Source of the DNA: Maribacter sp.
Lineage (GTDB): Bacteria; Bacteroidota; Bacteroidia; Flavobacteriales; Flavobacteriaceae
Reading direction: 5' to 3'
Assembly (NCBI GenBank): GCA_024228355.1
Contig: JAAETN010000059.1
Span: 1 to 45,400, forward strand
DNA: 45,400 nt
Positions 1 through 15,694 of the stretch are shown here, in pieces. The notes under the pieces are model-generated. The model made no database searches. It worked only from the letters and a program-made list of their open reading frames with translations, and had not been told where the DNA came from. How positions within the stretch are numbered: the stretch's first letter is position 1; each line of letters opens with the position of its first letter. The position numbers and the translations under genes were made by a program.

Positions 1-1326
1 CGTTATCGTGGTGGTCGTGCCACCCGCATCCGTAAAGTCATACGTGCCATCGCCATTGTCCACCAAGGCAACAGTGCCAGCGGCCACATTGATCTCATCG
101 ATCGCTGCCTGTACATCCGTGGCCACAAGCCCGGATGTTGTATTGTCATATGGATTCGAACCTGCGTTCGTGTCTATGTTCTGGGTAGCTCCAGTCTCAT
201 CGGTATACGTATAGGTACCATCGCCATTGTCCGCCAAGGTAGAGATCGACGTATCCGTTATCGTGGTGGTCGTGCCACCCGCATCCGTAAAGTCATACGT
301 ACCATCGCCATTGTCCACCAAGGCAACTGTGCCAGCGGCCGCATTGATCTCATCGATCGCTGCCTGTACATCCGTGGCCGTTAAACCCGATGTTGTATTG
401 TCATAAATTACTTCATTGGCATTCTGATCATCAGAGCCTACAAAAGTAATTGGAACACCATCCCCGTTGTCAAAGGTATAGGTCCCATCTCCATTATCTG
501 TAAGATTGGATTTGTTGATTGTTTGTGGAGTACCATCCTCATTGGTATAGGTTACCGTACCATCAAGATTGTCAACCAAATTTGTCACTGTCTCAGTAAT
601 CCCGGCCAAATCGGCTATTGCTTCCTGTACCGTGGTCTCATCATTACCATCCCCATCAACATCGATAGGGCCATTCAAGTTCACTTCAGTGGCATCCTGG
701 TCATCAGTACCATCAAAAGTAATTGGTGCCCCATCCCCGTTGTCAAAGGTATAGGTGCCATCAAGATTGTCCGTAAGGTCAGATTTATTAATCGTCTGCA
801 GTGTACCATCCTCATTCGTATAGGTAATGGTACCGTCATTGTTGTCCACTAAATTGGTTACCGTCTCGGTAATTGCTGCCAAATCGGCTATTGCATCCTG
901 TACCGTGGTCTCATTATTACCGTCTCCATCTACATCTATTGGTCCGTTCAGGTTCACTTCCGTGGCATCTTGGTCGTCAGTTCCAGTATTGCTTAAAGAA
1001 GATAAATCAACTGTAACAGAATTACCATCTTCAATATCCAAAGAAAGCATATTGGTTCCTGAATCAAAACTAAAGTTCTGTAGTTGTTGATCATCGGTAG
1101 CTGTTAATTCCCAAGAATCCCCATCCCAAAAATAAATGGTTCCAGTATTGGTATTAACATAGACATCTCCTGTATCAGCTCCTGCGGGGGTAATCATCCC
1201 AGGGGAGGTAACTGCGGTTCCGCTAAGGACCTCACAATTACATTGATCTTCCAAGTTTACCGTAGTTTGCGCAAAGGCAAATCCGGAGAACAGGAGAAAA
1301 ATTAGTATTAATATCTTTTTATTCAT
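1..1326 (-). CDS. Large secreted repeat protein, C-terminal part cut off by the window edge
   Basis: The frame opens at an ATG at 1326 and stays open for 442 codons to the window edge, so only the N-terminal part is seen. It begins with a clear signal peptide (MNKKILILIFLLFSGFAFAQ). About 110 residues follow, including a DVYVNTNTGTIYFWDGDSWE stretch common in flavobacterial surface proteins. Then come tandem modules: two 91-residue units containing DDQDATEVNLNGPIDVDGDG and NEDGT.QTINKS, followed by 85-residue units containing SGL.ATDVQAAIDEIN and LVDNGDGTYDFTDAGG. Repeats are spaced 273 bp (for example 425, 698, 971) and 255 bp (1 and 256). The many DNGDGTY motifs suggest extracellular beta-strand modules that may bind Ca2+. 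The sorting domain, if any, lies outside the window. Surface adhesin is an inference; I do not recognise a named family. Confidence 0.85.
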   Translation of the reverse strand, partial: MNKKILILIFLLFSGFAFAQTTVNLEDQCNCEVLSGTAVTSPGMITPAGADTGDVYVNTNTGTIYFWDGDSWELTATDDQQLQNFSFDSGTNMLSLDIEDGNSVTVDLSSLSNTGTDDQDATEVNLNGPIDVDGDGNNETTVQDAIADLAAITETVTNLVDNNDGTITYTNEDGTLQTINKSDLTDNLDGTYTFDNGDGAPITFDGTDDQDATEVNLNGPIDVDGDGNDETTVQEAIADLAGITETVTNLVDNLDGTVTYTNEDGTPQTINKSNLTDNGDGTYTFDNGDGVPITFVGSDDQNANEVIYDNTTSGLTATDVQAAIDEINAAAGTVALVDNGDGTYDFTDAGGTTTTITDTSISTLADNGDGTYTYTDETGATQNIDTNAGSNPYDNTTSGLVATDVQAAIDEINVAAGTVALVDNGDGTYDFTDAGGTTTTIT

Positions 1327-1840: not shown

Positions 1841-4800
1841 TTAGTTTTTGTTCACCCTATAAGTGATTCTTTTGTTCGTAATTACCGTATTTACCTGTAG
1901 GGTTAAAATGGCCGTATTTGATGTTTCCGTACTACAGATAAACATGGTATTTGAAACGATAACCCTATATTGATTTCCGTCGTCAGAGGCGGTTGCATTT
2001 GTAATGGTTAAAATGCTGGTTGTTGTACCACTATGAATGCCCGTATCTGTCAAATCTACCCAGGTTGAACCATTGTATATTTGCCATTGATAGGTATCTG
2101 CATTTGAGGCTATTACCTCTATTGTTGTATTACAACCTGGACATACATTGGTATCTGGGGGTTGAGTGGTAATACTAGGGGGTAGATCGACTTCCTGATG
2201 GTCATAGGTGCTGTTTGAGTCAATATCCGCAGGAACAGGATAAGTTGCGGCTGTTACACGGCCAAAACCATCCGTTGCTGGTGGATTACCAGTAGCATAA
2301 TACTCGTTGTCCCCTCCATCGGCATTAGCATCGTTATAGGCCTCGTTAGCGTCACTACAGCCATCGTCATCACTGTCGGTATCTAAAAAATCTGGTGGAT
2401 CATTACCGTCGGTATCTGTTATTGCGTAATTTATTGTGTCGCTTTCTGCGACTGTTTCTACGACATCCGCCAATCCGTTCGCACCATAAGTGCCATTTAC
2501 AACACCATTGGAATGTGTTTGATCATGACCGGCTTCGACCGCATCGTAAACACCATCATTATCACTATCTAGATCTAGGTGATTGGCAAGTCCATCTGAA
2601 TCTATATCAATTCCATATGTCTCAGGACTAACATAGTTCGTTAAACAACTGAATTCAATATTGTGCTGCCTTCCACCAGCAGACGCTCCTGCAACTCTTG
2701 CGACCGCACCTACCCGTACCGACAATTCAGATTTAGAATTATAATTTACCCCATAATTCACCTCAGGAAAGGTGTTTCCAGCTCCGGGAAACTCATTCAC
2801 TCCTGCCGTTCCCAAAACCCATGACCCATCAGTTGAAATGGTTAATTCAGTAGGATTTGAAATGATATAACTTGTTGGATTATCGGCCCAAATTTGTTCA
2901 CCATAGTTGGCATTGCCATCAATATCATTGAAATTGGTAAAGAACTTTGTAATCACAACAGGAGTACTTCCTCCAGAATTCACAAATTGGATAGTATATT
3001 CAATATACCCCTGGTCTCCAATATTTGTCAAATTGAAAGCTGTTTGAGGCCTAAATGAAGCTGGTTCAGAACTATTGTTATCAATATTGGCAACCGTTGC
3101 GTTAAAAGTTTGGGCAATGGTCACTAAGGCATCTGTACCTGTCGTAACATTTGAAATTCTATATACCGCTCCTAATTGTAAGGCCGTACCAGAAACCAAG
3201 GTAGCAGCAGAACTAAAATCTAAAATAGTTTCCCCGGTACAATCCTGTTGTGAATTACTGATAATGGTATTAAGTTCATCAACATCTACCAAACCATCAT
3301 TGTCATCATCCAAATCAGTCCTGTCCGGAACAGTATCGTTATCTGAATCGGCATAAACCGTAATATAAATTGTTGCCGTTGCCTCTTCCGACGTAAAAGT
3401 ACAATTAGCATTATCCCTTATTGTATAGGTAAAACTATCATTGCCAAAAAAGCCTGCTGTTGGGGTATACGTTACTGTGCCATCCCCATTTAAAACCGAT
3501 ACTCCATTCGACGGTTGCGTAATAGAAATTACCTCCATAGGCTCTCCTTCTGGATCGGAATCCGCACCATTTCCATTATCCACTAATGGATCTAACGTAA
3601 CAAAGCTATTCTCAACTACAGTTGTGTAATCGTCGGTAGCTGTAGGTGGTTCGTTGGCAGAATCGGGGAAAATATCCAACAAATTAATACTCCCATTAAA
3701 ATAATCAATAGGTCTTAATTGTTGCCGTACCACTATCCTACCAGAAGAAGTTCTTGGAAAGGCCACTTCCACCACTATAGGGGTATTTGGGCCACTTGGT
3801 AATCCAAAATGGATTCGACCGGGACCTTGCGTACCATGGCCATATCCGCCATTCACTTCACGGGTACCTGAAATTACATTCCCATCACAATCCAATATTT
3901 TGGAGGTTGCTCCCACACCAAATCGTTCTTCAGTATTGATAAGGCCAAAAGCATCCCTATCCTCAGTGATATCTATATAGAGGTGATTAGGTCTGCTAGC
4001 AGCAGGCAAATTATTTATATATAGTCTATTATTCCCTGATCTATTGGCATATAGGTCCAAGTCTCCATCCTGATCAATATCAACAAACGTACAACCTTCA
4101 CCTGCAGCTGTATTAAATGTGAGCCCTGAATCCACAAATGTCATAGCGCCTTGATTATAGTAGAGTTTACTGGTACTACTTCCTGTAAGAAATATGTCGA
4201 TATCACCATCGTTATCTACATCTCCGCAGGCCAAACCTTCTATTTGTCCTGAAAAATTTAATGGGATTCCAGTTGCTGCACCAAGAGGTGTCCATGTACC
4301 GTCCCCGTTGTTCCGATGAATTTGGTTGATTCCATTTTCGGTCCAGAATAAGTCAAAATCTCCATCATTGTCAAAATCATAAAAGGCTACAGCTCCTTTG
4401 TTCCCATTGGCAGCCTGATCTATATCGACACCATTTTGGAAAGAACCACCGATATTTGTAAACAGATCCACTTGATCTCTCTTACGGACCACGATATCTA
4501 CCCAACCGTCATCATTGAAATCCGTGGCAGATCCATAATCACCGTCAGTGGCGTCCTGTACCAGGCCTAAGGGCCATGTGGTAGGATTACCTGCATTATA
4601 TGGCGGATTGGGACTATCGACTTTTCTGGTGACATGGGTAAAAAACCCATTTCCATCATTTTGAAGTATATCGATACCATAATTATGGTTGTCCACAAAC
4701 AGGTCCAGATCACCGTCCCCATCATAGTCCAATGCCCCAGCACCTTCGGTATTCATACCATCCGTTAATGTGGTAAAGCGTTGATTGGGAGTTGTACCTC

Positions 4801-5224
4801 CAAGGCCATCTCCAAATCTATTGGTAACCGGGTCTTGAAGATATATTCTTAAGTCGTTGTGTTTATTCCTAAAAACATCAGGATAACCATCATTGTTGAA
4901 ATCGACAAAAAGTGCGGTACGTTCTAAATTACCCCCACTGAAGTCTGGAGCCAGTGCAGCTGTTTGATCGGAAAAACTTCCGCCGTCATTCCTCAAAAGA
5001 TAACCACTTCCCTGCCTGTTGACCACAAGATCAAAATCACCATCCAGGTCATAATCTGCCCAGGCATGCCCGCCATCCTTGTTCCCACCAATATTTAGTC
5101 CATAAGCAGCGGCACTTTCGGTAAAAGTGGTTTGGGCCAATGCTTCACCATGCCAAAATATGAGTAGACTCAATACTATGCCGAAAGCAAGATTGGTTAA
5201 AAATGATTGAGAATTTCTTCCCAT
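1841..5224 (-). CDS. Exported FG-GAP/VCBS repeat protein with ASPIC-UnbV domain and basic C-terminal tail
   Basis: An ATG start gives 1127 residues with a signal peptide (about 1-31, cleaved near ALAQ). Residues about 35-410 hold at least seven FG-GAP/VCBS-type Asp-rich loops (DYDLDGDFDLVV, DFNNDGYPDVF, DYDGDGDLDLFV, DVDNDGDIDIFL), which form Ca2+-binding beta-propeller blades in known members. An ASPIC/UnbV-like segment follows (about 415-525, EERFGVGATSKI to GRIHFGLPSG). Next are a tandem cadherin-like module (about 528-635, TATDDYTTVVENS to NDSFTYTI), thrombospondin-3-like Asp repeats (about 640-660 and 875-1010) and an Ig-like module (about 1020-1110). It ends with TVITNKRITYRVNKN, nearly identical to the end of the next gene upstream. 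Neither a type A nor a type B T9SS domain is recognisable. Probably surface-exposed or secreted; ligand unknown. Confidence 0.85.
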   Translation of the reverse strand: MGRNSQSFLTNLAFGIVLSLLIFWHGEALAQTTFTESAAAYGLNIGGNKDGGHAWADYDLDGDFDLVVNRQGSGYLLRNDGGSFSDQTAALAPDFSGGNLERTALFVDFNNDGYPDVFRNKHNDLRIYLQDPVTNRFGDGLGGTTPNQRFTTLTDGMNTEGAGALDYDGDGDLDLFVDNHNYGIDILQNDGNGFFTHVTRKVDSPNPPYNAGNPTTWPLGLVQDATDGDYGSATDFNDDGWVDIVVRKRDQVDLFTNIGGSFQNGVDIDQAANGNKGAVAFYDFDNDGDFDLFWTENGINQIHRNNGDGTWTPLGAATGIPLNFSGQIEGLACGDVDNDGDIDIFLTGSSTSKLYYNQGAMTFVDSGLTFNTAAGEGCTFVDIDQDGDLDLYANRSGNNRLYINNLPAASRPNHLYIDITEDRDAFGLINTEERFGVGATSKILDCDGNVISGTREVNGGYGHGTQGPGRIHFGLPSGPNTPIVVEVAFPRTSSGRIVVRQQLRPIDYFNGSINLLDIFPDSANEPPTATDDYTTVVENSFVTLDPLVDNGNGADSDPEGEPMEVISITQPSNGVSVLNGDGTVTYTPTAGFFGNDSFTYTIRDNANCTFTSEEATATIYITVYADSDNDTVPDRTDLDDDNDGLVDVDELNTIISNSQQDCTGETILDFSSAATLVSGTALQLGAVYRISNVTTGTDALVTIAQTFNATVANIDNNSSEPASFRPQTAFNLTNIGDQGYIEYTIQFVNSGGSTPVVITKFFTNFNDIDGNANYGEQIWADNPTSYIISNPTELTISTDGSWVLGTAGVNEFPGAGNTFPEVNYGVNYNSKSELSVRVGAVARVAGASAGGRQHNIEFSCLTNYVSPETYGIDIDSDGLANHLDLDSDNDGVYDAVEAGHDQTHSNGVVNGTYGANGLADVVETVAESDTINYAITDTDGNDPPDFLDTDSDDDGCSDANEAYNDANADGGDNEYYATGNPPATDGFGRVTAATYPVPADIDSNSTYDHQEVDLPPSITTQPPDTNVCPGCNTTIEVIASNADTYQWQIYNGSTWVDLTDTGIHSGTTTSILTITNATASDDGNQYRVIVSNTMFICSTETSNTAILTLQVNTVITNKRITYRVNKN

Positions 5225-5422
5225 GGTTTTGATTTACAACTATAACAACTTATAATCAGATGGTTACAGCTTAATATCCTATAAAAATCGAGCCATTTGG
5301 TAGGTAAAAAAAAATAATGTTGTGAATTACCAAGAATGTGGCATTTGGTCCTTAAAACTTGTTGTTTCATCGATCAAATCCTACAGATAAGGACTTGCGT
5401 AAGAAATGGAAAGTAGATACTA

Positions 5423-8400
5423 TTAATTCCTATTCACCCTGTGGGTAATTCTCCTGTTAGTTATTATAGTCCTCACCTTAATTTGTGATAGAGGTGAAAA
5501 CTCCGAGGTACTATTGGAAATGGTTGTTGTGGCGGTTAGCCAGTTTCCAACACTTGCCCCTCCAGGAAGCGGAATAGAAAACCTAAATTTGTTGGTATTA
5601 TCTGCATTACCATCTGCATCCGTATAGGAAGAACTAGTACCGTCAAGATCACTGGCACTTCCCTCAATTAGGGTAATCAAATACGTTTGTCCTTCTCCAT
5701 AATCGGTACTCATTCCCAGTTCATTATCTCCGCTGGAAGCTGTACCCTCTGAAATATCTGTAATAAACAATTCAATAATGGCACCAGGTCTGGCCCAACC
5801 TTGTAAAATCAGATTGGTACCATCAGTAGTTATGGATTCGAATATTGGAAAATTGAGTAAATCATTAGGGCCATTATCTCCATCTCCATTATCATTCAAG
5901 GTTACATCATCCCCTATATTATCAGACGCATCCAAATCTATACCTAGTGCATCGGAAGCTGTTCCATTGGCATAAATTGAATTTTGTGAAATGAGATTCC
6001 CAGAAGTATTTCCGCCAGCCAACACAATTCCTGCACCACCATTGGATGCAATTATGTTATTGGCAATGCTAGAATTGTTGCCATCTAAAAGTATTCCGGC
6101 ATTTTCAACATTACCCGAGCAGTTCCCACCATCCTGTCCAGAACCGGTTATAGTATTTTCGGTAATAGTTATATTTCCGCTAACCCCATCGCCATCAATA
6201 CCCAAACTTGCTGCATTTTCGATAAGGTTTTGTTGGATGACGACTCCAGAACCACTTTGAATAGTAATATTATCACTACAGGCAGAATCCCCGTTTGAGG
6301 TAATATGGTTGTTCTGTATGGTTGTTGAAGTACCACCGTTGATCATTAACCCGGCATCGGTATTTGTTGCAATGTAATTTCCATCAACTACCGCCATACC
6401 ACTAGTAATCTCTACCCCGTAATCAATATTACCTGCGTTTACTCCAAGAGCATTTACGCCCAGTAGATTATTTGATATGGTTGCAGAGCCAGAATCAATC
6501 CGAATTCCGGCATTATTACCGGCATAAACCGAGATATTCCTAATAATTGTACCGCCTCCTTGTATCATAAATACATCACCTCCATCTCTATGAACCTGTA
6601 TCTCAGGCCTATCAAAATTTGACAGCAAAGTGCCTGAAGTACCTACCGCCGATCCTCCAGAGCCGACGCTACCAGCATTGGTATTGCCGGAATAAGCTGT
6701 TTGTGTTCTTCCATCAATCCTAGTATCATTATCTGTAATTGTGGTTAAAGGATTTCCGTTCGAAATATTTATATCAAAGTATCCGCTTGAATAATTCGCA
6801 TCGGCGGTTCTTCCTAATGGATCAGCAGTGGTTGGTATCATAAACACCGAGGTATCATCCCCTGCTGCCGGATCAAAAATGGTGTTGGCCTCGATATCCA
6901 GGCCGGTTTCACCAATCTCATTGGAATTTACAATAAACTGCTCTAGGGAGCCTTGCCCATCTTCATTGGTATTTACAATGGTGTTAAAATTGAATCCGAA
7001 ATCAAGACCTGCAACACCTTCATTGGTAATAGTTGCCACCCCTATTGTTTGAGCACCTGTTAATACACCTGTTCCAGTATCCACTGTAGAAGGATCGGCA
7101 CCCCCTACCTCATTTGGCCGTTCCACTAAAGTACTGGCAATGTATTCAGTTTTAAAAGTTTGAACCGGCAGGCAACTTACACACGCACTTCCACCTGGCC
7201 TAGAGGAAGTGACACTGCCATTTACAACGCGAATACTATAGGTGCCATTGATCATTCCGGCGAATACATATGTGCCCGTAGCATCTGTTATTTGGGTATC
7301 TATCAAGGTTCCTACACTATCATAGAGTTCTACGGTAGTACCCGAAAGCCCTACTCCCGAGGCACTGGCATAATTTCTACCTGAACCTCCACCATAATTA
7401 ACATCTTCAAATACACGCCCAGTGATTAAATTTGAAGGTACCTTTAACACCACTGCATTCATGATTACAAAATCTTGCCCTACATTAATTTGGGTGGTAG
7501 CACTGGTTTCTCCAGGCAATATAAATGAGGACACATCATAAGTATCCAGATCAACTCCGTATACCACCGTATTGTTGACTACTGGTAATACGGTATTATC
7601 ATAATTGGTTGAATTAAACGGATTGTTCACCGTAATACCATCATTATCACCATCACCAACTAATTTATTGGCACCTGCCAATGGCGTTGTAAACCACAAT
7701 GATTCGTTATTAGCCAGGGTCTGGTCGCCTTCCCAGGACAGAGCGGTTGTCTTGGATCCAGTTGAGCCTATTGCGTAAAACCCGCTCAAGGAAAAAGTGG
7801 AAGAAGAATTACTATTGCCGTCAAATCCCTGGTAGAGGTTAATCGTAGAAGCGGGAAGACTGGTATCAGTATAAAAAATCATTAAAGCCCATCCTCCTAA
7901 AACAGTGGCTGAAGGACAAAAAATACTGGAATTATCAACAGTTAGTCCCGAAAAATCGTATACATTGGTTGAAGGATTGGGTATGCTGTTGATTAAAGTA
8001 GTCACATCGGCATAACTTCCATGAAAAGTTCTGGTGGTTATGGAGGTCTGATATACCACCTCTGCACTCACGGTTGCTCCTTCAAAAGTAACCTGAGCAT
8101 CCAAGGTAGCTCCAGAATGAGACCAATACAAAAATGCTCTTTCAATAGTGGCTCCCACCGGAATGGGTGAAGACAGCGTATTAGAAGAACTGGTCGTAAT
8201 AGCACAAGGATCCGCTGTATTGGGTTGGGTTCTAAGCGTTCCGCCTGTGGAAGTATAATCCATATATCCGTCAAATTCCTGAAACAATGCCAGTGGTGTA
8301 TTTCCCAACACCACTTCATCATCTACTATTGTACCCGTAGCTGTATCGGAAATGTTGACTGAAATATCGGAGGTTCCGGTTAATTGAATTGTATACGTTT

Positions 8401-9163
8401 CTGAGGGCTCAAAAATCGTATCATCGGTAATGTTCACTGTAATCTGCTCGGTATCACCTACAATGCCATTAAAATTAAGTGTGCCTGCACCAATGGCGGT
8501 ATAATCACTGCCGGCTGTGGCCGTGACATCCACAGTTTGATAATTAACGGTAAATGGACCAGAAGTATCTAATCCGATGTGTGTTGCAGTAAATGTCGCC
8601 GTTCCTGCGTTTTCATTTACTGAAACATCATCAATTGAAATAGTTGGATTATAAGTAGCCGTGAACACTACATTATCTATAAAAATAGTCTCACTTGAAC
8701 CCCAATTACCACTTCCCGTCCTGAAACGGATGCCTGAAGAACTGGAAATTTCGCTTGGGGCTAAGGTATAACTTAACGAACCCGTACCTGTTAAAGTAGA
8801 AACTGTATTATATGAACTTCCATTATACAATTGTACCAAAATACTTTCATTGCCATTGGTTCTATCATAATCAAGAGTAAGGGTAACACTTGTCGCACCA
8901 TTTAAATCGAGGGTTCTAGTGATATACCTTGAATCCAGATTTCTAAAACGTAATTGATTGGAATTTATCAATATTCTTCCCCCACTTGGACTAGTAGTCT
9001 CATTAGTTTCTACCCAGTTTGTTGCAAAATTCAGTGAGCCATTGTTATTTGCATAGGACACTGAACTAAAGGTATCCGAAAAGGTATCCTGGGCCATAAC
9101 CATCACGCCCATGAGCATAAGAAAAAGTAATAAAAAGTTCTTTCTGAGAAGTTGCATTTGCAT
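5423..9163 (-). CDS. Exported Calx-beta / beta-helix protein with basic C-terminal tail
   Basis: The frame is open to a TTG at 9202, but I chose the ATG at 9163 because it places a signal peptide at the N-terminus (MQMQLLRKNFLLLFLMLMGV, then MVMAQ). The resulting protein is 1246 residues; 9157 is also possible. Order of segments: a jelly-roll-like region (about 26-175), a Calx-beta module (about 180-285, ISIDDVSVNENAGTATFTAT), a beta-rich region (about 290-590), an SdrD B-type or carboxypeptidase-regulatory-like module (about 590-700, GRVFEDVNYGGGSGRNYASA), and a right-handed parallel beta-helix (about 830-1080) with repeated I.NN.I.SNG turns. The C-terminus, TIITNRRITHRVNRN, matches the tail of the 1841-5224 product. 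It is 198 bp from that gene and may be co-transcribed. Likely surface-associated; function unknown, and no catalytic residues could be assigned. Confidence 0.85.
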   Translation of the reverse strand: MQMQLLRKNFLLLFLMLMGVMVMAQDTFSDTFSSVSYANNNGSLNFATNWVETNETTSPSGGRILINSNQLRFRNLDSRYITRTLDLNGATSVTLTLDYDRTNGNESILVQLYNGSSYNTVSTLTGTGSLSYTLAPSEISSSSGIRFRTGSGNWGSSETIFIDNVVFTATYNPTISIDDVSVNENAGTATFTATHIGLDTSGPFTVNYQTVDVTATAGSDYTAIGAGTLNFNGIVGDTEQITVNITDDTIFEPSETYTIQLTGTSDISVNISDTATGTIVDDEVVLGNTPLALFQEFDGYMDYTSTGGTLRTQPNTADPCAITTSSSNTLSSPIPVGATIERAFLYWSHSGATLDAQVTFEGATVSAEVVYQTSITTRTFHGSYADVTTLINSIPNPSTNVYDFSGLTVDNSSIFCPSATVLGGWALMIFYTDTSLPASTINLYQGFDGNSNSSSTFSLSGFYAIGSTGSKTTALSWEGDQTLANNESLWFTTPLAGANKLVGDGDNDGITVNNPFNSTNYDNTVLPVVNNTVVYGVDLDTYDVSSFILPGETSATTQINVGQDFVIMNAVVLKVPSNLITGRVFEDVNYGGGSGRNYASASGVGLSGTTVELYDSVGTLIDTQITDATGTYVFAGMINGTYSIRVVNGSVTSSRPGGSACVSCLPVQTFKTEYIASTLVERPNEVGGADPSTVDTGTGVLTGAQTIGVATITNEGVAGLDFGFNFNTIVNTNEDGQGSLEQFIVNSNEIGETGLDIEANTIFDPAAGDDTSVFMIPTTADPLGRTADANYSSGYFDINISNGNPLTTITDNDTRIDGRTQTAYSGNTNAGSVGSGGSAVGTSGTLLSNFDRPEIQVHRDGGDVFMIQGGGTIIRNISVYAGNNAGIRIDSGSATISNNLLGVNALGVNAGNIDYGVEITSGMAVVDGNYIATNTDAGLMINGGTSTTIQNNHITSNGDSACSDNITIQSGSGVVIQQNLIENAASLGIDGDGVSGNITITENTITGSGQDGGNCSGNVENAGILLDGNNSSIANNIIASNGGAGIVLAGGNTSGNLISQNSIYANGTASDALGIDLDASDNIGDDVTLNDNGDGDNGPNDLLNFPIFESITTDGTNLILQGWARPGAIIELFITDISEGTASSGDNELGMSTDYGEGQTYLITLIEGSASDLDGTSSSYTDADGNADNTNKFRFSIPLPGGASVGNWLTATTTISNSTSEFSPLSQIKVRTIITNRRITHRVNRN

Positions 9164-9342
9164 TCCTTGGGTTAAATTTTGATAAAAATACCCTGAATGC
9201 AATACTTAAAGTAACAAATGTTGTATAACAAGTGAATTGAGAAGTGAACTGAATGATTTTTGGTGTTTCTTACGAAATGAAGCGTGTATTTCATGGATAA
9301 ACCCAGTAAAACTCAATTCTAGCAGAGCACCAAAAGCGAAGA

Positions 9343-9390: not shown

Positions 9391-11328
9391 CTATTCTAGT
9401 ATTATAAACTCTGATCTGCGGTTAAATTCATGTTCTTTTGCAGAACATCTTACCCCATTCGTACATTTGTTTATTAATCTAATCTCCCCAAAACCTTCTC
9501 CTTTAAGTCTATCTTGGGTTATACCCTTAGAAATCATATAATTTACGGTAGATTCCGCTCTCTTTTGAGACAACCAAAGGTTATAGGCATCCGGACCTCG
9601 ACTATCGGTATGGGAATTTACCTTTATCTTAAGACTTGGATATTTTTCCATAGCCGCAATTACCTTTTGCACCTCTATCTCAGAATCTTTGCGAATGTTG
9701 TACCTATCAAAATCAAAGTAAATGGTACTCAGCTGTAATAATTTGGCCAAATCATCACCAAACCCGCCAGTAACTAAATCCCGCTCTAAATAAAAGTCAA
9801 TAATATTCGCTTTCCCGGCCGATTTACCCAAATATTCTTCTGAAGGTACATAACCCTGCATAAGGGCCCTTACGAAGTTACCTTTGTTACAATCCAGGGA
9901 AAGGCTATATCTACCTTCAGAATCTGTTATTGTAGTAAGGATCTCCTTATTATCTTCATCGATAACCTTAACTGTAGCACCTACTAAAACTTCATTTGAT
10001 ATTTTATCCCTTACCGTACCGGAAACATCTTGTATACATTCCAGTTGTAATGGGGTATGCTCAATAAAACCATAAATATCATCCGATCCCATTCCTTCGG
10101 TTCGATTAGAAGCAAAATATCCTTTACGCGATTCCTCATTAAATATGAATGTGAAGTCATCCATTTTACTATTTACGGGTTCCCCGACATTTACAACGGC
10201 ACCATTATATTTTCCAAATTTGATCCTGGTAGCGAAAACATCCAATCCGCCTAGTCCGGGATGCCCATCAGAAGACATATATAATACTTCTTCAGTCGTA
10301 ATAAAAGGAAAGGTCTCTCTTGCCTCTGTATTTATATTATTTCCAAGATTTACCGGCGTTCCAAAAGTTCTATCTGAATTGATGGTTACTTTGAAAATAT
10401 CAGATTCACCCAATGTTCCCGGCATATCAGATGCAAAGTACAATGTCTTTTCGTCTGGACTAAGTGCTGGATTGGCAACTGAATAATTATTGCTATTAAA
10501 CGGTAATTCCTCAATATTAGACCAAACATTATCAATCAGAACTGCGCGAAAAATCTTGAGCCTAATTACTCCCTTATCATCTTTTATGTATTTGCCTTCT
10601 TTTATATTATTCCTTGTAAAATAAAGTGTGTTCCCATCTTTAGTTATAGCAGACGTTGATTCGTGCAGTCGAGTATTTACATTTTCACCAATTTTAGCAA
10701 CCCTATCTGTAGAAATACTATCAGCATTCACCTTATATAAGTCTAAGAAATCCTTGGAATTCCAAGTATGCCTGTACCTTGCCAAATTTCCAGTATCACG
10801 ATCTGATGAAAAAATAAGCCCTTCTTTATAATAGGAAGGCGCAAAATCAGAATAGGTTGAGTTAAAATCAAAGTTCTCCAATTCGTATCTTCCAGAATTC
10901 TTACGTATTTCTTCCAAATAATCCGATTCACTTTTATAAGCTATTGCTCTAATATCATCAGAGGTTATCCGGGTAAATTTCTCCATAATCCCCTTAGACC
11001 CATCATAATCACCTAAAGACTTCAAAGTCTGTGCATATCTAAAATAATATTCCGGACCTATATCAGTAGCATATTCATCTACCAACCTTTTATAGGTGCT
11101 GGACGCCTCTTGGTAGTCTGCATTAAAGTAGTAGGAATCTCCTAATCTTTTTAATAGATCAGCGGAGACATATCCTTTATCCAACACTTTTTTATAAATA
11201 TCTATTGCAGGTTTAAAGGAATACTCATTATATTTCTTATCTCCTTTTTCCACTAATCTTTCCTGGGCATAACTGTATTGTCCTAAAAAGAAAATAAAGA
11301 GTGTAAGTGATACTATTTTTTTTATCAT
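9391..11328 (-). CDS. PorE-like OmpA-family protein (TPR, PD40 propeller, CRD, OmpA)
   Basis: 645 residues with an ATG start and signal peptide (MIKKIVSLTLFIFFLGQYSY, then AQ). Domains in order: TPR-like helices (about 25-120); a WD40/PD40 propeller (about 150-410) with blades such as SPDEKTLYFASDMPGTLGES and LYMSSDGHPGLGGLDVF; a carboxypeptidase-regulatory-like domain (about 425-495, VSGTVRDKISNEVLVGATV); and an OmpA C-terminal domain (about 525-645). The Asp and Arg of the OmpA domain that bind diaminopimelate in this family are present (NSHTDSRG and SQKRAES). This is the architecture of PorE, the peptidoglycan-bound T9SS protein of Porphyromonas gingivalis. The gene follows porP/sprF by 10 bp and is the last gene of the triad. 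Inferred role: anchoring a PorP-linked surface complex to peptidoglycan. A second, non-T9SS-core paralogue is likely. Confidence 0.9.
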   Translation of the reverse strand: MIKKIVSLTLFIFFLGQYSYAQERLVEKGDKKYNEYSFKPAIDIYKKVLDKGYVSADLLKRLGDSYYFNADYQEASSTYKRLVDEYATDIGPEYYFRYAQTLKSLGDYDGSKGIMEKFTRITSDDIRAIAYKSESDYLEEIRKNSGRYELENFDFNSTYSDFAPSYYKEGLIFSSDRDTGNLARYRHTWNSKDFLDLYKVNADSISTDRVAKIGENVNTRLHESTSAITKDGNTLYFTRNNIKEGKYIKDDKGVIRLKIFRAVLIDNVWSNIEELPFNSNNYSVANPALSPDEKTLYFASDMPGTLGESDIFKVTINSDRTFGTPVNLGNNINTEARETFPFITTEEVLYMSSDGHPGLGGLDVFATRIKFGKYNGAVVNVGEPVNSKMDDFTFIFNEESRKGYFASNRTEGMGSDDIYGFIEHTPLQLECIQDVSGTVRDKISNEVLVGATVKVIDEDNKEILTTITDSEGRYSLSLDCNKGNFVRALMQGYVPSEEYLGKSAGKANIIDFYLERDLVTGGFGDDLAKLLQLSTIYFDFDRYNIRKDSEIEVQKVIAAMEKYPSLKIKVNSHTDSRGPDAYNLWLSQKRAESTVNYMISKGITQDRLKGEGFGEIRLINKCTNGVRCSAKEHEFNRRSEFIILE

Positions 11329-11338
11329 CTATTCCGAT

Positions 11339-12292
11339 TTAAAAGAATCGAGGTGATACCAATTGTTTGAATGATTTGACCAGCTCAAATCGTAAAAAAA
11401 CTTCAAAAGAACCATCGTTGAATTGGGTGCCTCCCAAATCAGTGGTCTCTCGGTCATAAGCCAAGCCCAACATTAATTGTTCCGATATTTGAAAACCGAA
11501 CAGTGCACTTACTGCAGCATCCCATCTGTAGGCGGCACCAAAAGAAAATTTATCGTTAAACAAAAAACTGCCAGAAAAATCTATCTGTAATGGTGCTCCG
11601 CCAACAACCTTTGTTAAAAGGGCAGGCTTAAACTTAGTATTACCACCTATATCAAATACATACCCGGTAATCAAATAGAAATTAATTCTTTCCTTTGAGA
11701 GAAACTGCACAGAATTTGCATCTCTTTGTTCATTATCAAAATGATCGGTTTGCAACAAATTTGGTGCAGACAATCCCGCATAAAATGAATTTGTATGGTA
11801 GTAAATACCTACTCCAACATTGGGCGAAAATTTATTCTCGATATTATCCACATTAATTGGCTCAACATCAAAATTACGCAGGCCTTGAAAATCCAAGTTC
11901 AATAAATTCCCTCCGGCCTTTAAGCCAAATGACAGTTTCCCTTCTAAAGAAACATCAATCGTATATGATAATACTGCGTCAAAATAGGTTTCTTGAACCA
12001 CACCATCCCCTATTTCGTCATTGACGACGGATATGCCATAGCCCAATTGACTATTTCGAATTGGAGAATGGAGGTTTAATGTTTGACTCTTGGGAGCACC
12101 GTCCAAGCCTACCCATTGGGATCTATACAACGCAGCGATACTCAATTGGCCCCTTGACCCTGCATACGCCGGGTTAACACTCATTGTATTGAACATATAC
12201 TGGGTATATTGAGCATCTTGTTGTGCGCTTACCGATTCCAAGAAAATGAATACAAGTAATAAAGGTGCTAGAAAGCTCTTTTTTATTATCAT
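11339..12292 (-). CDS. PorP/SprF family T9SS-associated outer-membrane protein
   Basis: 317 residues with an ATG start and signal peptide (MIIKKSFLAPLLLVFIFLES, then VSA). The segment right after it is the family hallmark: QQDAQYTQYMFNTMSVNPAY, AGSRG, then ALYRSQWVGLDGAPKSQTLN. The remainder is alternating beta strands with GxG turns, consistent with an outer-membrane barrel, and it ends in an aromatic (SPRFF), as outer-membrane proteins often do. It lies 15 bp after a type B CTD cargo gene and 10 bp before the PorE-like gene, so the three are almost certainly one transcript. SprF in Flavobacterium johnsoniae is needed for surface localisation of its neighbouring type B cargo SprB. By analogy this protein should serve the 12308-15694 product. 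Confidence 0.93.
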   Translation of the reverse strand: MIIKKSFLAPLLLVFIFLESVSAQQDAQYTQYMFNTMSVNPAYAGSRGQLSIAALYRSQWVGLDGAPKSQTLNLHSPIRNSQLGYGISVVNDEIGDGVVQETYFDAVLSYTIDVSLEGKLSFGLKAGGNLLNLDFQGLRNFDVEPINVDNIENKFSPNVGVGIYYHTNSFYAGLSAPNLLQTDHFDNEQRDANSVQFLSKERINFYLITGYVFDIGGNTKFKPALLTKVVGGAPLQIDFSGSFLFNDKFSFGAAYRWDAAVSALFGFQISEQLMLGLAYDRETTDLGGTQFNDGSFEVFLRFELVKSFKQLVSPRFF

Positions 12293-12307
12293 ATGTAGTT
12301 CAATAAA

Positions 12308-15300
12308 TTATTTGCTGACGTAAATATAACCACTATCGGTAACATTATTCTGATCGTCTTTTTGATATTCAAATATATAAAAATAAACCCCTGCTGGCAG
12401 ATACTCTTCGGCACTTACCGTAGACCTTCCTTTTGATCTACCATCAAAAACATTATTTTGATTATTATATCCCTGACCTTCATAAACAGCTACCCCCCAT
12501 CTGTTAAAAATCTTGAGAGAGTTGTTTCTTGCATTTTCAACACCCCTTATAAACAAAAAGTCATTTCTACCATCGTTATTGGGCGTTACCATTTGGTTAA
12601 CTTCAATACCTATTGGCAATACTTCGCTAACCACGACCAATACAATTGCTGTATCGCAATTTTCCGAATTTGCTATTTCGCAAATCGTATATTCTATGGA
12701 ATATGATCCTGTTGGTGTTTCCGGGGCCACAATTATAGTACCATCGGTATCTACTGTTAATGGGCCGGTTTGTTCTGAAGTGATAATTACATTTGCTGGA
12801 TCGACCGGTTCGCTATTTAGAGTATCATTTTCCAACACATTGCTGTCTGGTAATACACCCCCTACCATGCCATCAATAAAAACATTTGTAAAATCATCAT
12901 CCACGGCATCAATAGTCGTAGGTGGAATACCCACTGTAATTGTAACTGTTGCCGTATCGCAGTTCTCCATATCATCACAAATCGTGTACTCAAAAGTGTC
13001 TGTACCATTGAAACCATTTTCAGGAGTATAGGTCACCGTATCGTCATTAGGATCATCTGGGGTACCTCCATCATTAATTACAACAATACCATTATCAGGA
13101 TCTGTTACGGTTAATGACTCAATATTCGGTACACCAGTATCATTAGCCAATATATCGATGTCCACAGGTGTATCTTCATCGGTCGAAACCGTGTCGTCGA
13201 CGGCATCAAGCATTGGTGGCGTACCAACCGTAATAGTAACGGTAGCCGTATCACAGTTATCCATTGCATCGCAAACGGTATATTCAAATGTATCCGTGCT
13301 GTTATTGAACCCACTGTCCGGAGTATAGGTTATTGTATCGTCACTTATGTCATCGGGCGTACCCCCATCGTTAATTACAACCGTACCGTTTTCAGGATCA
13401 GTTGTTGTTAGAATCCCGTTATCAGGGATACCTGTATCATTGTCCAATACATCGATCTCCACTGGAGTGTCCTCGTCTGTAGATGCCATGTCGTCAACAG
13501 CGTTTATTGATGTATCAGTTGGAAATGAAGTCACTGTAGGATCATCAGGATTGCCATCTCCATCAATATCCCTATCTGTAGGATTATCTGGATCATCTGA
13601 AAGACTACTTATTGGGCCATTATCCGGAATGAATGCGGTTACGGTTGCAGAATTACTAAAACTACCACTATCAATATCCGCTTGGGTAATGACATATGAA
13701 GCCGTAAAAGTTGTATCATCCGCTACACCTGGTTCCAAAATTTCCAATGGACCACCTATCACGGTGACCAATGGATCAGTAATGGTAATATTTCCTAAGG
13801 GTACAATTCCAGTATTAGTTACTGTGAATACATACCCAATTGTCTCTCCTTCCTGGAATAAACCATCGCCATTCTCATCATTAAAATTATCTACTTTTAA
13901 TACGGTAATATTAGCACCATGATCATCGATGGGATCCAAATAATCGGGTGTGTCGTCACCATCGGTATCATCATTGGTAGGGTCACCATCGCCGTCCTCA
14001 TCCTCATCAGGGGTGTCGATACCGTCACCGTCATCGTCCAGATCCCTATAGTTCACATCCTCCGTGCCATCCGTGTCCGGTAGGTCGTTCGCCGGGTCAT
14101 CGATCTCATCGTTCACATCGAAGCCATCGTTCACATCGCTGCCCTCATAACCATCGTCAAGGCCATCACCATCACTGTCGGTGCCTGTAAATGTCTGGTC
14201 AGGAACTCCGTCGAAATCAAAGTCGTTGCCCTCATTGTTATCGGGTACAAGGTCGTTGTCGGTATCGGTATCCAGATAATCAAGCTCATCGGTGCCGTCC
14301 GTATTCACCGGGGAAAGGCCTTGGTCACCTGCTCCCTCGTAGGCATTGTCCAAACCGTCGTTGTCGTCATCTGCACCAGTTGGTGGAACATAACCAGCAG
14401 TGGTCTGCCCCTCCACATTGTCAGGGATGCCATCATTGTCCGAATCTATGTCCCTGAAATTGGGATAGTTGTCAGTATCAGAATTTATTGGAGTGATTCC
14501 CTCACCAGAACCGGGATTGTCTTCGTAGTGGTCATCTAGGCCATTGCCATCACTGTCCAAACCGCAAGGGGCTTGAAAATCTTCATCAGTCTGGGCCTCA
14601 ACATTGTCCAAAATCCCATCATTGTCAGAATCGATATCCCTATAATCAGGATGGTGATCATAATCTGTATCTATTGGAGTGATGCCTTCACCAGAACCAG
14701 GGTGGTCTTCGTAATGGTCATCCAGCCCATTGCCATCACTGTCGATTCCGCTAGGGGCTTGAAAAGCTTCATCAGTCTGGGCCTCTACATTATCCAAAAT
14801 CCCATCATTATCCGAATCAATGTCCAAATGGTCTGGATATCCGTCACCATCGGTATCCAAAGAATCTGTTAATGGGTCGTTGTCACCATCAAGGTTTGGG
14901 TCCTCGGTTGTATCAAGGATACCGTCATTATCGTCGTCTATGTCCACCAAATCAGGTATCCCGTCGCCATCCGTATCAGTACATATATAGGGTTTTATAT
15001 ACAAAGTAATTATACTTGAACCGTTTGAGGTAGTATAAAATTCTATATCTGTAACTGGGGATTGAGATTCCCAATCCACAATAATATCAGGATGATTACT
15101 CGCAGAAGTTGTATTCTTAACATAATAGTTATTATCGTCCACAATAGATATTATGCCCGGACTTAGGGATCCAATAAACTCATATTCAACATTATCCAAT
15201 GCCACAATACCATCTTGAGCGCCTACCTGTATCCCAGAAGAGTGATGGGCTTTTACAATTACAGGTACCAATCCAGTGATTTTGAAAATTATTGGAGAAT

Positions 15301-15694
15301 TAACTATTGTCCTAAATTTTCCATTCGAATCCGTACTAGCTCCGTCAATACTAATAACAACACTACCTAATGGCAGTCCCCATTTATGACTAACATCAAC
15401 ATTAGAGGCCGTCAAACTGCCATCCGAGATCCCAGAGGGTAGTCCTAAATCCGATGCCAACAATTGCTTCAAATCCAGCATTGAACAGTCATCATGGTCT
15501 GATTCTATATCATCAATATCAGCATGATCAGGAATAACATCGCCATCTGTTTCAGTATCGGGAAGAACAACATCAATACTATTTGAGTGAGCATGAATAA
15601 CATTGAGGCCAATAACCATTAAATTTAAAACAAAAACGAATCTCAGACCTAATTTCAGAAAATGCCTAAATGAGTGATATGTAAAATTTTCCAT
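12308..15694 (-). CDS. T9SS type B cargo: TSP3-repeat and cadherin-like surface protein
   Basis: I chose the ATG at 15694 (MENFTYHSF) over an in-frame TTG at 15706, giving 1128 residues. A basic then hydrophobic export signal covers about 1-38. Residues about 240-620 are a very acidic run of thrombospondin-3-like Ca2+-binding repeats ([19 protein letters not shown]), including a 62-residue tandem repeat. Then come a DUF11-like module (about 625-740, [20 protein letters not shown]) and three cadherin-like/tandem modules (about 760-1010, [16 protein letters not shown]). The last ~95 residues are a T9SS type B sorting domain: [32 protein letters not shown], and [12 protein letters not shown] before the terminal GYIYVSK. 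It heads the operon with PorP/SprF and the PorE-like protein. Expected to be exported by T9SS and held at the cell surface; adhesion is a guess. Confidence 0.92.
14425..14830 (-). repeat. 186-bp tandem repeat inside the TSP3 region
   Basis: Three copies of a 62-codon unit are spaced exactly 186 bp apart: the CATCATTGTC core starts at 14431 and 14617, and the matching position of the third copy is near 14803. Each unit encodes two Asp-rich loops plus an SGEGITPI linker. The two copies on the 3' side of the plus strand are the most alike, which suggests recent unit duplication. Confidence 0.75.

Follow-up and report, generated by a model that had tools for sequence, protein, structure and literature searches.

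A conserved short C-terminal tail on secreted proteins of Flavobacteriaceae and RCD, its candidate partner domain

The sequence studied in this work (the window) is a 45,400-nt stretch of contig JAAETN010000059.1 from Maribacter sp., whose genome is a 4.7 Mb draft in 807 contigs. Two adjacent genes on the minus strand of the window encode secreted proteins, P0001 and P0002, that close in an almost identical C-terminal tail, and this tail, together with a C-terminal domain termed RCD that is found in relatives of a neighboring gene, is the subject of the analysis. The two tails and the proteins that carry them are located as follows, with positions counted from the first letter of the window.

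1844..1888, minus strand: C-terminal tail of P0001, 15 residues, TVITNKRITYRVNKN then stop
5426..5470, minus strand: C-terminal tail of P0002, 15 residues, TIITNRRITHRVNRN then stop
1841..5224, minus strand: P0001, tail-bearing secreted protein of 1127 aa with a signal-peptide-like start and with FG-GAP repeats, Big_9 and Ig_3 before the tail
5423..9163, minus strand: P0002, tail-bearing secreted protein of 1246 aa from its ATG, with a signal-peptide-like start, Calx-beta, SdrD_B and a right-handed beta helix

The ATG of P0002 lies at 9163, with an alternative TTG upstream at 9202, and the beta-rich end of the protein ("...NSTSEFSPL") immediately precedes the tail. An initial annotation, made from the letters of the window, had described the two proteins as near-identical at their C-termini and unrelated before them, and both statements were borne out; it had not given their strand, which is minus for both. 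The tails share 11/15 residues, the preceding domains differ as listed above, and whole-protein BLASTP of P0001 against P0002 returned one significant match, covering the last 19 residues (12/19 identical, E 1e-4; next match E 1.5). The count of five to six positive charges given in that annotation was too high, each tail having four K/R (five in P0002 if His is counted). Chance was rejected as the source of the likeness by this BLASTP result and by three further measures. A degenerate codon pattern for ITN[KR..][KR..]IT occurred 2 times in the window, whereas 100 shuffles averaged 0.00 occurrences; the same pattern gave 2 matches in the whole 4.7 Mb of the genome, where a reversed control pattern gave 1; and a tail profile of 26 positions, built from tails seen in relatives, recovered the two window tails from the genome at E 1.5e-15 and 7.4e-11, along with three weak matches (E 0.0265, 1.59 and 3.27) that were taken for chance.

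The initial annotation had also reported that neither protein carries a recognized type A or type B domain of the type IX secretion system (T9SS), and here too the searches agreed. Neither P0001 nor P0002 matched the NCBIfam models for type A (TIGR04183) or type B (TIGR04131) at E<=1, and P0004, a protein of the same gene group used as a positive control, matched TIGR04131 and CHU_C. There was likewise no NCBIfam match for either protein at E<=1 to a type C (ChiA-type) domain, a negative that presupposes an (unverified) model for it in the NCBIfam set. Loss of a type A or type B C-terminal domain (CTD) through an early stop was considered and rejected, as no open reading frame (ORF) of at least 80 aa lies on that strand between P0001 and the next gene, REP (described below), and the 198 bases that follow P0002 are too short for one, and no CTD model matched either protein. 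By eye, the resemblance of the tail to the ends of a few type A CTDs of the same genome was too weak to use. Separately, residues 1013-1125 of P0001 match a phage "tail protein" family at E 1.5e-7.

Homologues were collected from named genomes with a 528-residue query from P0002 that excluded the tail, and the best 80 of 119 loci were retained; among these 80 were loci from Maribacter, Zobellia, Arenibacter, Muricauda/Allomuricauda, Cellulophaga, Aquimarina, Muriicola, Robiginitalea, Euzebyella and others. The tail stood at the protein end in 76/80, one protein was truncated, and in three Aquimarina proteins (loci L295, L299 and L307; here and below, L and G numbers denote loci and genomes) the tail was internal and followed by ~115 more residues. 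A fourth protein, from G186 (L351), ends in the same kind of extension, and the ~115-residue C-terminal domain of all four ends CGC[VI][TS]FY[KE]L, with CGC[VI][TS]FYKL in the three Aquimarina proteins.

Anatomy was scanned in 101 loci, namely the window, 20 loci and a further 80, which were fetched for profile or pattern matches and cover part of the profile matches in the genome sample. Tails were present in 92/101, and in all 131 ORFs that matched the tail profile the match ended 0-5 residues before the stop. N, T and R occupied three tail positions in 131/131 rows, the rows being found by the profile; the column regular expression demands these three residues and excluded zero rows. The remaining core positions were mostly I, T, R/K, R/K, I, Y/H/F and V. 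Synonymous codons were used freely at the conserved N, T, I, V and R positions, so conservation acts on the peptide, and a DNA-level repeat or mobile element was rejected for the same reason. Several short ORFs of 33-67 aa hold the tail and little else (L078 in G009, L066/L043 in G002, L084 in G005, L152 and L180 (49 aa)), which look like remnants of tail genes or their frame-shifted ends, and decayed tails were seen in L129 (7478-9139) and L182 (9064-9885).

The proteins in front of the tail are varied. The 110 residues preceding 128 tails fell into 7 BLAST clusters (sizes 67, 35, 14, 6, 3, 2 and 1), which excludes a single paralogue family; two of the findings that the initial annotation had named as counting against a signal, a mostly internal motif and restriction to one paralogue family, were not what was observed. 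The 250-residue C-termini of the tail proteins matched Ig_3, Ig_7, DUF11, Big_9, cadherin-like and beta-helix models, among others. A signal-peptide-like N-terminus, for which enrichment had been proposed as a check, was present by a crude home-made rule in 111/128 tail proteins vs 108/255 unlabelled ORFs of the same loci. No T9SS CTD was among the 25 most frequent of the 42 NCBIfam families matched by the 128 tail C-termini, the other 17 matching at most one member each, and the type B CTD (CHU_C) was likewise absent among the 25 Pfam families listed for the 128 proteins; the type B models did find the controls P0004, L222, L320 and L312. NCBIfam BamM matched 25/128 tail C-termini at E<=1 (best 1.5e-4), a likeness that DxDxDG calcium-type repeats may account for. 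There is good support for a real C-terminal signal, at the level of the peptide, on secreted proteins. This much of the interpretation in the initial annotation stood; the role of the signal in sorting, anchoring or outer-membrane recognition is putative. Shared ancestry of the 3' ends, which had been offered as the main alternative to a signal, is not an alternative, because a functional tag can itself spread by 3'-end shuffling.

At E<=1e-4, the tail profile matched 77/395 sampled Flavobacteriaceae genomes in 44/203 genera, with 1-5 matches per genome. Among 392 genomes sampled across the phylum, whose non-Flavobacteriaceae share is not shown, 9 matched at E<=1e-3, all of them Flavobacteriaceae; the genomes of genus g133, perhaps Flavobacterium, that were listed from this sample had no tail. 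A second element with a closely related distribution was found through the gene that follows the tail genes, which is present in the window in part.

1..1326, minus strand: 5' part of REP, a giant secreted repeat protein, cut by the window edge; in complete relatives, REP or a small gene after REP ends in RCD

The start domain of REP is conserved (QTTVxLEDQCNCEVLSGT...GDIYVNTNTGTIYFWDGDSWELT) and has no Pfam match, and complete relatives are 1600-4618 aa in length (eight cases). RCD is a C-terminal domain of ~107 residues that closes ...INVVFVVK. In all eight regions with a complete REP, RCD either ends REP itself or, where REP is shorter, ends a small secreted protein encoded separately behind it; such small RCD-ending proteins start from ~185 aa. 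Across 42 RCD genes, RCD ended within 3 residues of the stop in 42/42. Searches with RCD gave no convincing relative in Pfam (best E 0.059) or NCBIfam (best E 0.11) and a single PDB match, at E 0.4; there was likewise no match to any PorP/SprF model or to an enzyme. Collagen-like stretches precede RCD in G225, G358 and G186.

Among the 395 Flavobacteriaceae genomes, 77 had the tail, 96 had RCD and 76 had both, such that the tail genomes are nested within the RCD genomes; the one exception is the genome of the window itself, a draft of 807 contigs that does contain the REP N-terminus, cut off by the window edge. The REP N-terminus was found in 74/395 genomes, 72 of them with the tail. Fisher's test for co-occurrence of tail and RCD gives 3e-61, a number that shared descent makes meaningless as a probability. 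RCD was present once per genome in 95/96 RCD genomes of this sample, against 1-5 tail proteins, and RCD therefore looks like a hub with the tail proteins as its clients.

The association of tail and RCD extends beyond the canonical tail. In RCD genomes that lack a canonical tail, divergent tails were seen that end ...NCTVITNPMLPSRAKQ (G116), ...LLITNPHIYQRVKNN (G224), ...CLIITNPMLPSKARN (G257), ...KPALVNPHLPTKVKD (G084), ...NCIPVNRHIRSFLKGS (G343) and ...GGTVITNRNKTFRVNRD (G226, where the divergent tail gene lies upstream of REP); these are of the [IV][TS]N[RKP]... or PVNR types. RCD was also present in 11 of 98 sampled genomes of the order, 9 of them in two other families, with at most 4 matches per genome. 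In the other families RCD forms a small secreted protein, and the next gene, which starts 7-87 bases on (14 complete cases), has a product ending ...KCIITNRMITAKPNSN, ...KCSVISNPMLPSNSQ, ...KACVISNKNVTQKITR or similar. Of the 42 RCD genes, which came from two fetched sets, 39 had a complete same-strand next gene. This gene was tail-like in 29/39, comprising 23 that fit a loose tail pattern and 6 with the variant P[VL]NR[NH].R[ST][YF], assigned by eye. The other 10 comprised 6 of the main type with a second type B gene after RCD, one with an Aquimarina-type extension and 3 with no tail, these three belonging to one genus and having an aberrant RCD end. Elsewhere in the same loci the loose pattern was found in 2/208 other ORFs, both on the same strand and upstream of an RCD gene. 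Profiles for the type B CTD, PorP and PorE had no match in 21/39 of these loci within the 6-19 kb read, including all 15 from other families. Two RCD-tail pairs stand in tandem in G343 and in G835, and 30 tail proteins of this divergent kind fell into 5 body clusters.

These observations bear on one alternative, in which the tail caps Ig-like domains as a structural end strand and has spread by 3'-end shuffling, with no role in recognition. In its favor, the tail does follow Ig-like, DUF11 and cadherin-like domains, and decayed tails and orphan tail-only ORFs exist. Invariance of N, T and R in 131/131 rows across 7 BLAST clusters is unexpected for a mere cap, as are confinement to RCD genomes and adjacency to RCD, and we consider an end-cap very improbable.

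A single RCD, several clients, confinement of the tail to RCD genomes and the kept adjacency together form a tag-and-reader pattern. On the sequence evidence, the tail may be a portable recognition tag that is read by RCD and serves as a surface sorting or docking module, the reading that we favor and to which we assign a probability of about 0.48. In molecular terms the tail would bind RCD, for example by adding a beta strand to it; the alternating pattern of RITYRV suggests a beta-strand contact. Such binding would hold the client at the cell surface or on the REP protein, and the tail, RCD or both would take the place of the T9SS CTD that is missing from the tail proteins.

Several findings weigh against recognition of the tail by RCD. 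Co-occurrence of the two is inflated by shared descent, and the loose tail pattern was written after many tails had been seen, for which reason its p of 7e-20 is descriptive. RCD is present without a canonical tail in 20/96 RCD genomes; the RCD loci of these 20 show a divergent tail beside RCD in 14, are cut by contig ends in 3 (G124, G225 and G358, each on the tail-gene side) and have no tail beside RCD in 3 (G024, G245 and G369, all of genus g14). Within the window's own genus, G003 and G011 have no tail match at E<=0.1 yet keep RCD, and therefore either RCD does not need the canonical tail or the drafts hide one; co-loss of tail and RCD in this genus was accordingly not found, both tail-negative genomes retaining RCD. 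No RCD was present in the stretches read around 22 solitary tail loci, so any contact there must be in trans. Outside Flavobacteriaceae, where there are up to four RCD matches per genome, the picture of one hub is not general. As a separate observation on genus g14, its loci L388, L389 and L348 have an altered last RCD strand (MTVIVAKK type) and a type B gene directly after RCD.

The remaining alternatives draw in part on the genes that surround the tail genes. In the window, those upstream of P0002 are the following.

9391..11328, minus strand: PorE-like OmpA-family protein; top NCBIfam models CHU_0125_OmpA and T9SS_PorE, neither reaching its cut-off
11339..12292, minus strand: PorP/SprF protein (PF11751, E 5.9e-90)
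12308..15694, minus strand: P0004, type B T9SS substrate with CHU_C and TIGR04131 matches, first gene of the conserved gene group

The PorE-like, PorP/SprF and type B genes at 9391-15694 form a conserved group. Type B substrate, PorP/SprF, PorE-like and REP genes were all present in 44/92 tail loci, in the order type B, PorP, PorE, tail (1-4 genes) and REP, in some cases with small ORFs between them. Part of the set was present in 11 further tail loci, and in G160 (L126, L196) the type B, PorP and PorE genes lie after REP. In the other 37/92 the tail gene had no neighbor labeled as type B, PorP, PorE or REP: 12 of these tail genes follow a giant type B protein (recognized by its end pattern), 3 adjoin an ORF of 2400-2980 aa (by eye) and 22 are solitary. 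A PorP-like gene was seen in 45/92 tail loci; in the remaining 47, which include loci cut by contig ends, the stretch read showed none.

The recurrent gene order in the 44 full-set loci would fit a model in which the tail binds the PorE-like OmpA protein, PorP/SprF or the type B adhesin, and the tail proteins are accessory subunits of a PorE-PorP-type B complex. A complex of this composition is known in P. gingivalis (PMC9143113). RCD-tail pairs that have no type B, PorP or PorE gene in the stretch read, and the 22 solitary tail loci, speak against this model, which we regard as improbable.

At the loci with a giant type B protein, the N-terminus of the giant and the tail protein are paralogues. 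In G207 these neighbors share 72% identity over 625 aa and part at their C-termini: one has a CHU_C type B CTD (E 1e-20), its neighbor the tail. The same IgGFc_binding domain recurs in a G232 homologue (L222) that closes with a type B end, and four longer relatives from genomes without a tail match (L312-L315) have type B ends, that of L312 by model and the others by eye. The tail therefore stands where relatives have a T9SS CTD.

This substitution, seen in the G207 pair and in L222, is one of the points that make a minimal T9SS sorting signal the main rival of recognition by RCD. The tail would then be a CTD class beside A, B and C that, with the preceding domain, mimics the last CTD strand, with the SprA translocon and a carrier as its readers, and RCD would be merely another protein of the same operon. 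Most tail proteins do have a signal-peptide-like start, surface-type domains and no recognized CTD, and type B, PorP, PorE and REP genes accompany the tail in 44/92 loci. According to PMC11285876 and PMC10202324, T9SS CTDs depend on their final strand, which has a conserved lysine; for HBP35 the last 22 residues are sufficient, and a His tag added at the C-terminus is tolerated. Since His tags are tolerated behind a CTD, the Aquimarina extensions are compatible with a minimal T9SS signal. A generic T9SS signal should not, however, be limited to RCD genomes (76/77), nor should it adjoin RCD where type B, PorP and PorE genes are unseen nearby; in addition, T9SS CTDs are described as whole beta-sandwich domains, whereas the domain before the tail differs between clusters. 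On balance we consider a minimal T9SS signal somewhat unlikely. It and recognition of the tail by RCD can both be true if RCD acts as the carrier for a T9SS-like signal.

A more elaborate version of recognition by RCD, which we put forward tentatively and hold to be less probable than the recognition itself, is that the order has a so far undescribed display system with RCD and the tail as its two components. A secreted carrier, either fibre-like or small, with RCD at its end would capture in trans the tails of a range of other secreted proteins, probably by beta-strand addition, and this would replace the T9SS CTD in surface delivery. At its origin the system would have been a two-gene operon, which would later have become part of the type B/PorP/PorE operon in the Maribacter-Zobellia-Muricauda lineage.

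The tail and RCD were compared with known C-terminal signals. Like the tail, the T9SS type A CTD (TIGR04183, PF18962) is a C-terminal signal on secreted Bacteroidota proteins in which a last strand with a conserved basic residue matters; unlike the tail, it is a whole domain with a 72-position model, as opposed to 15 residues behind varied domains. The type B CTD (TIGR04131, CHU_C) and its PorP/SprF shuttle resemble tail and RCD in that signal and partner genes stand side by side and in that the two signals fill the same slot in paralogous neighbors. They differ in that there is no sequence match, RCD fits no PorP/SprF model and RCD-tail pairs occur without PorP in the stretch read. The type C CTD (ChiA type), the third published flavobacterial class, is described as a 100-residue region, unlike the tail.

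Outside T9SS, the short sorting tags of the LPXTG-sortase and PEP-CTERM-exosortase systems carry a hydrophobic helix and a cleavage motif. They share with the tail a short portable tag that serves many clients through one partner; the hydrophobic helix and cleavage motif were unseen in the tail, and RCD has no enzyme match. Dockerin-cohesin pairs and donor-strand exchange in Bacteroidetes fimbriae, which were compared through Pfam and NCBIfam scans only, may share a mechanism with tail and RCD, in that a C-terminal element docks a client on a scaffold. The tail thus appears to resemble known C-terminal tags in its working, and by sequence it meets the defining feature of no family tested. Word and sequence searches of one open-access library, at the level of its listings, found no description of the tail or of RCD.

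T9SS substrates are predicted from their CTDs, which leaves large surface proteins without a CTD unexplained. The tail provides a simple rule by which 1-5 such proteins per genome can be recognized in about one-fifth of the sampled Flavobacteriaceae (77/395), and RCD is a candidate receptor for it. If RCD and the tail do pair physically, they would add a new pair of tag and receptor in a group to which many marine flavobacteria belong, and might be of use as a tool for surface display.

Among the relatives of the window's gene group, L194-L201 carry an additional type B/PorP pair after or near REP.

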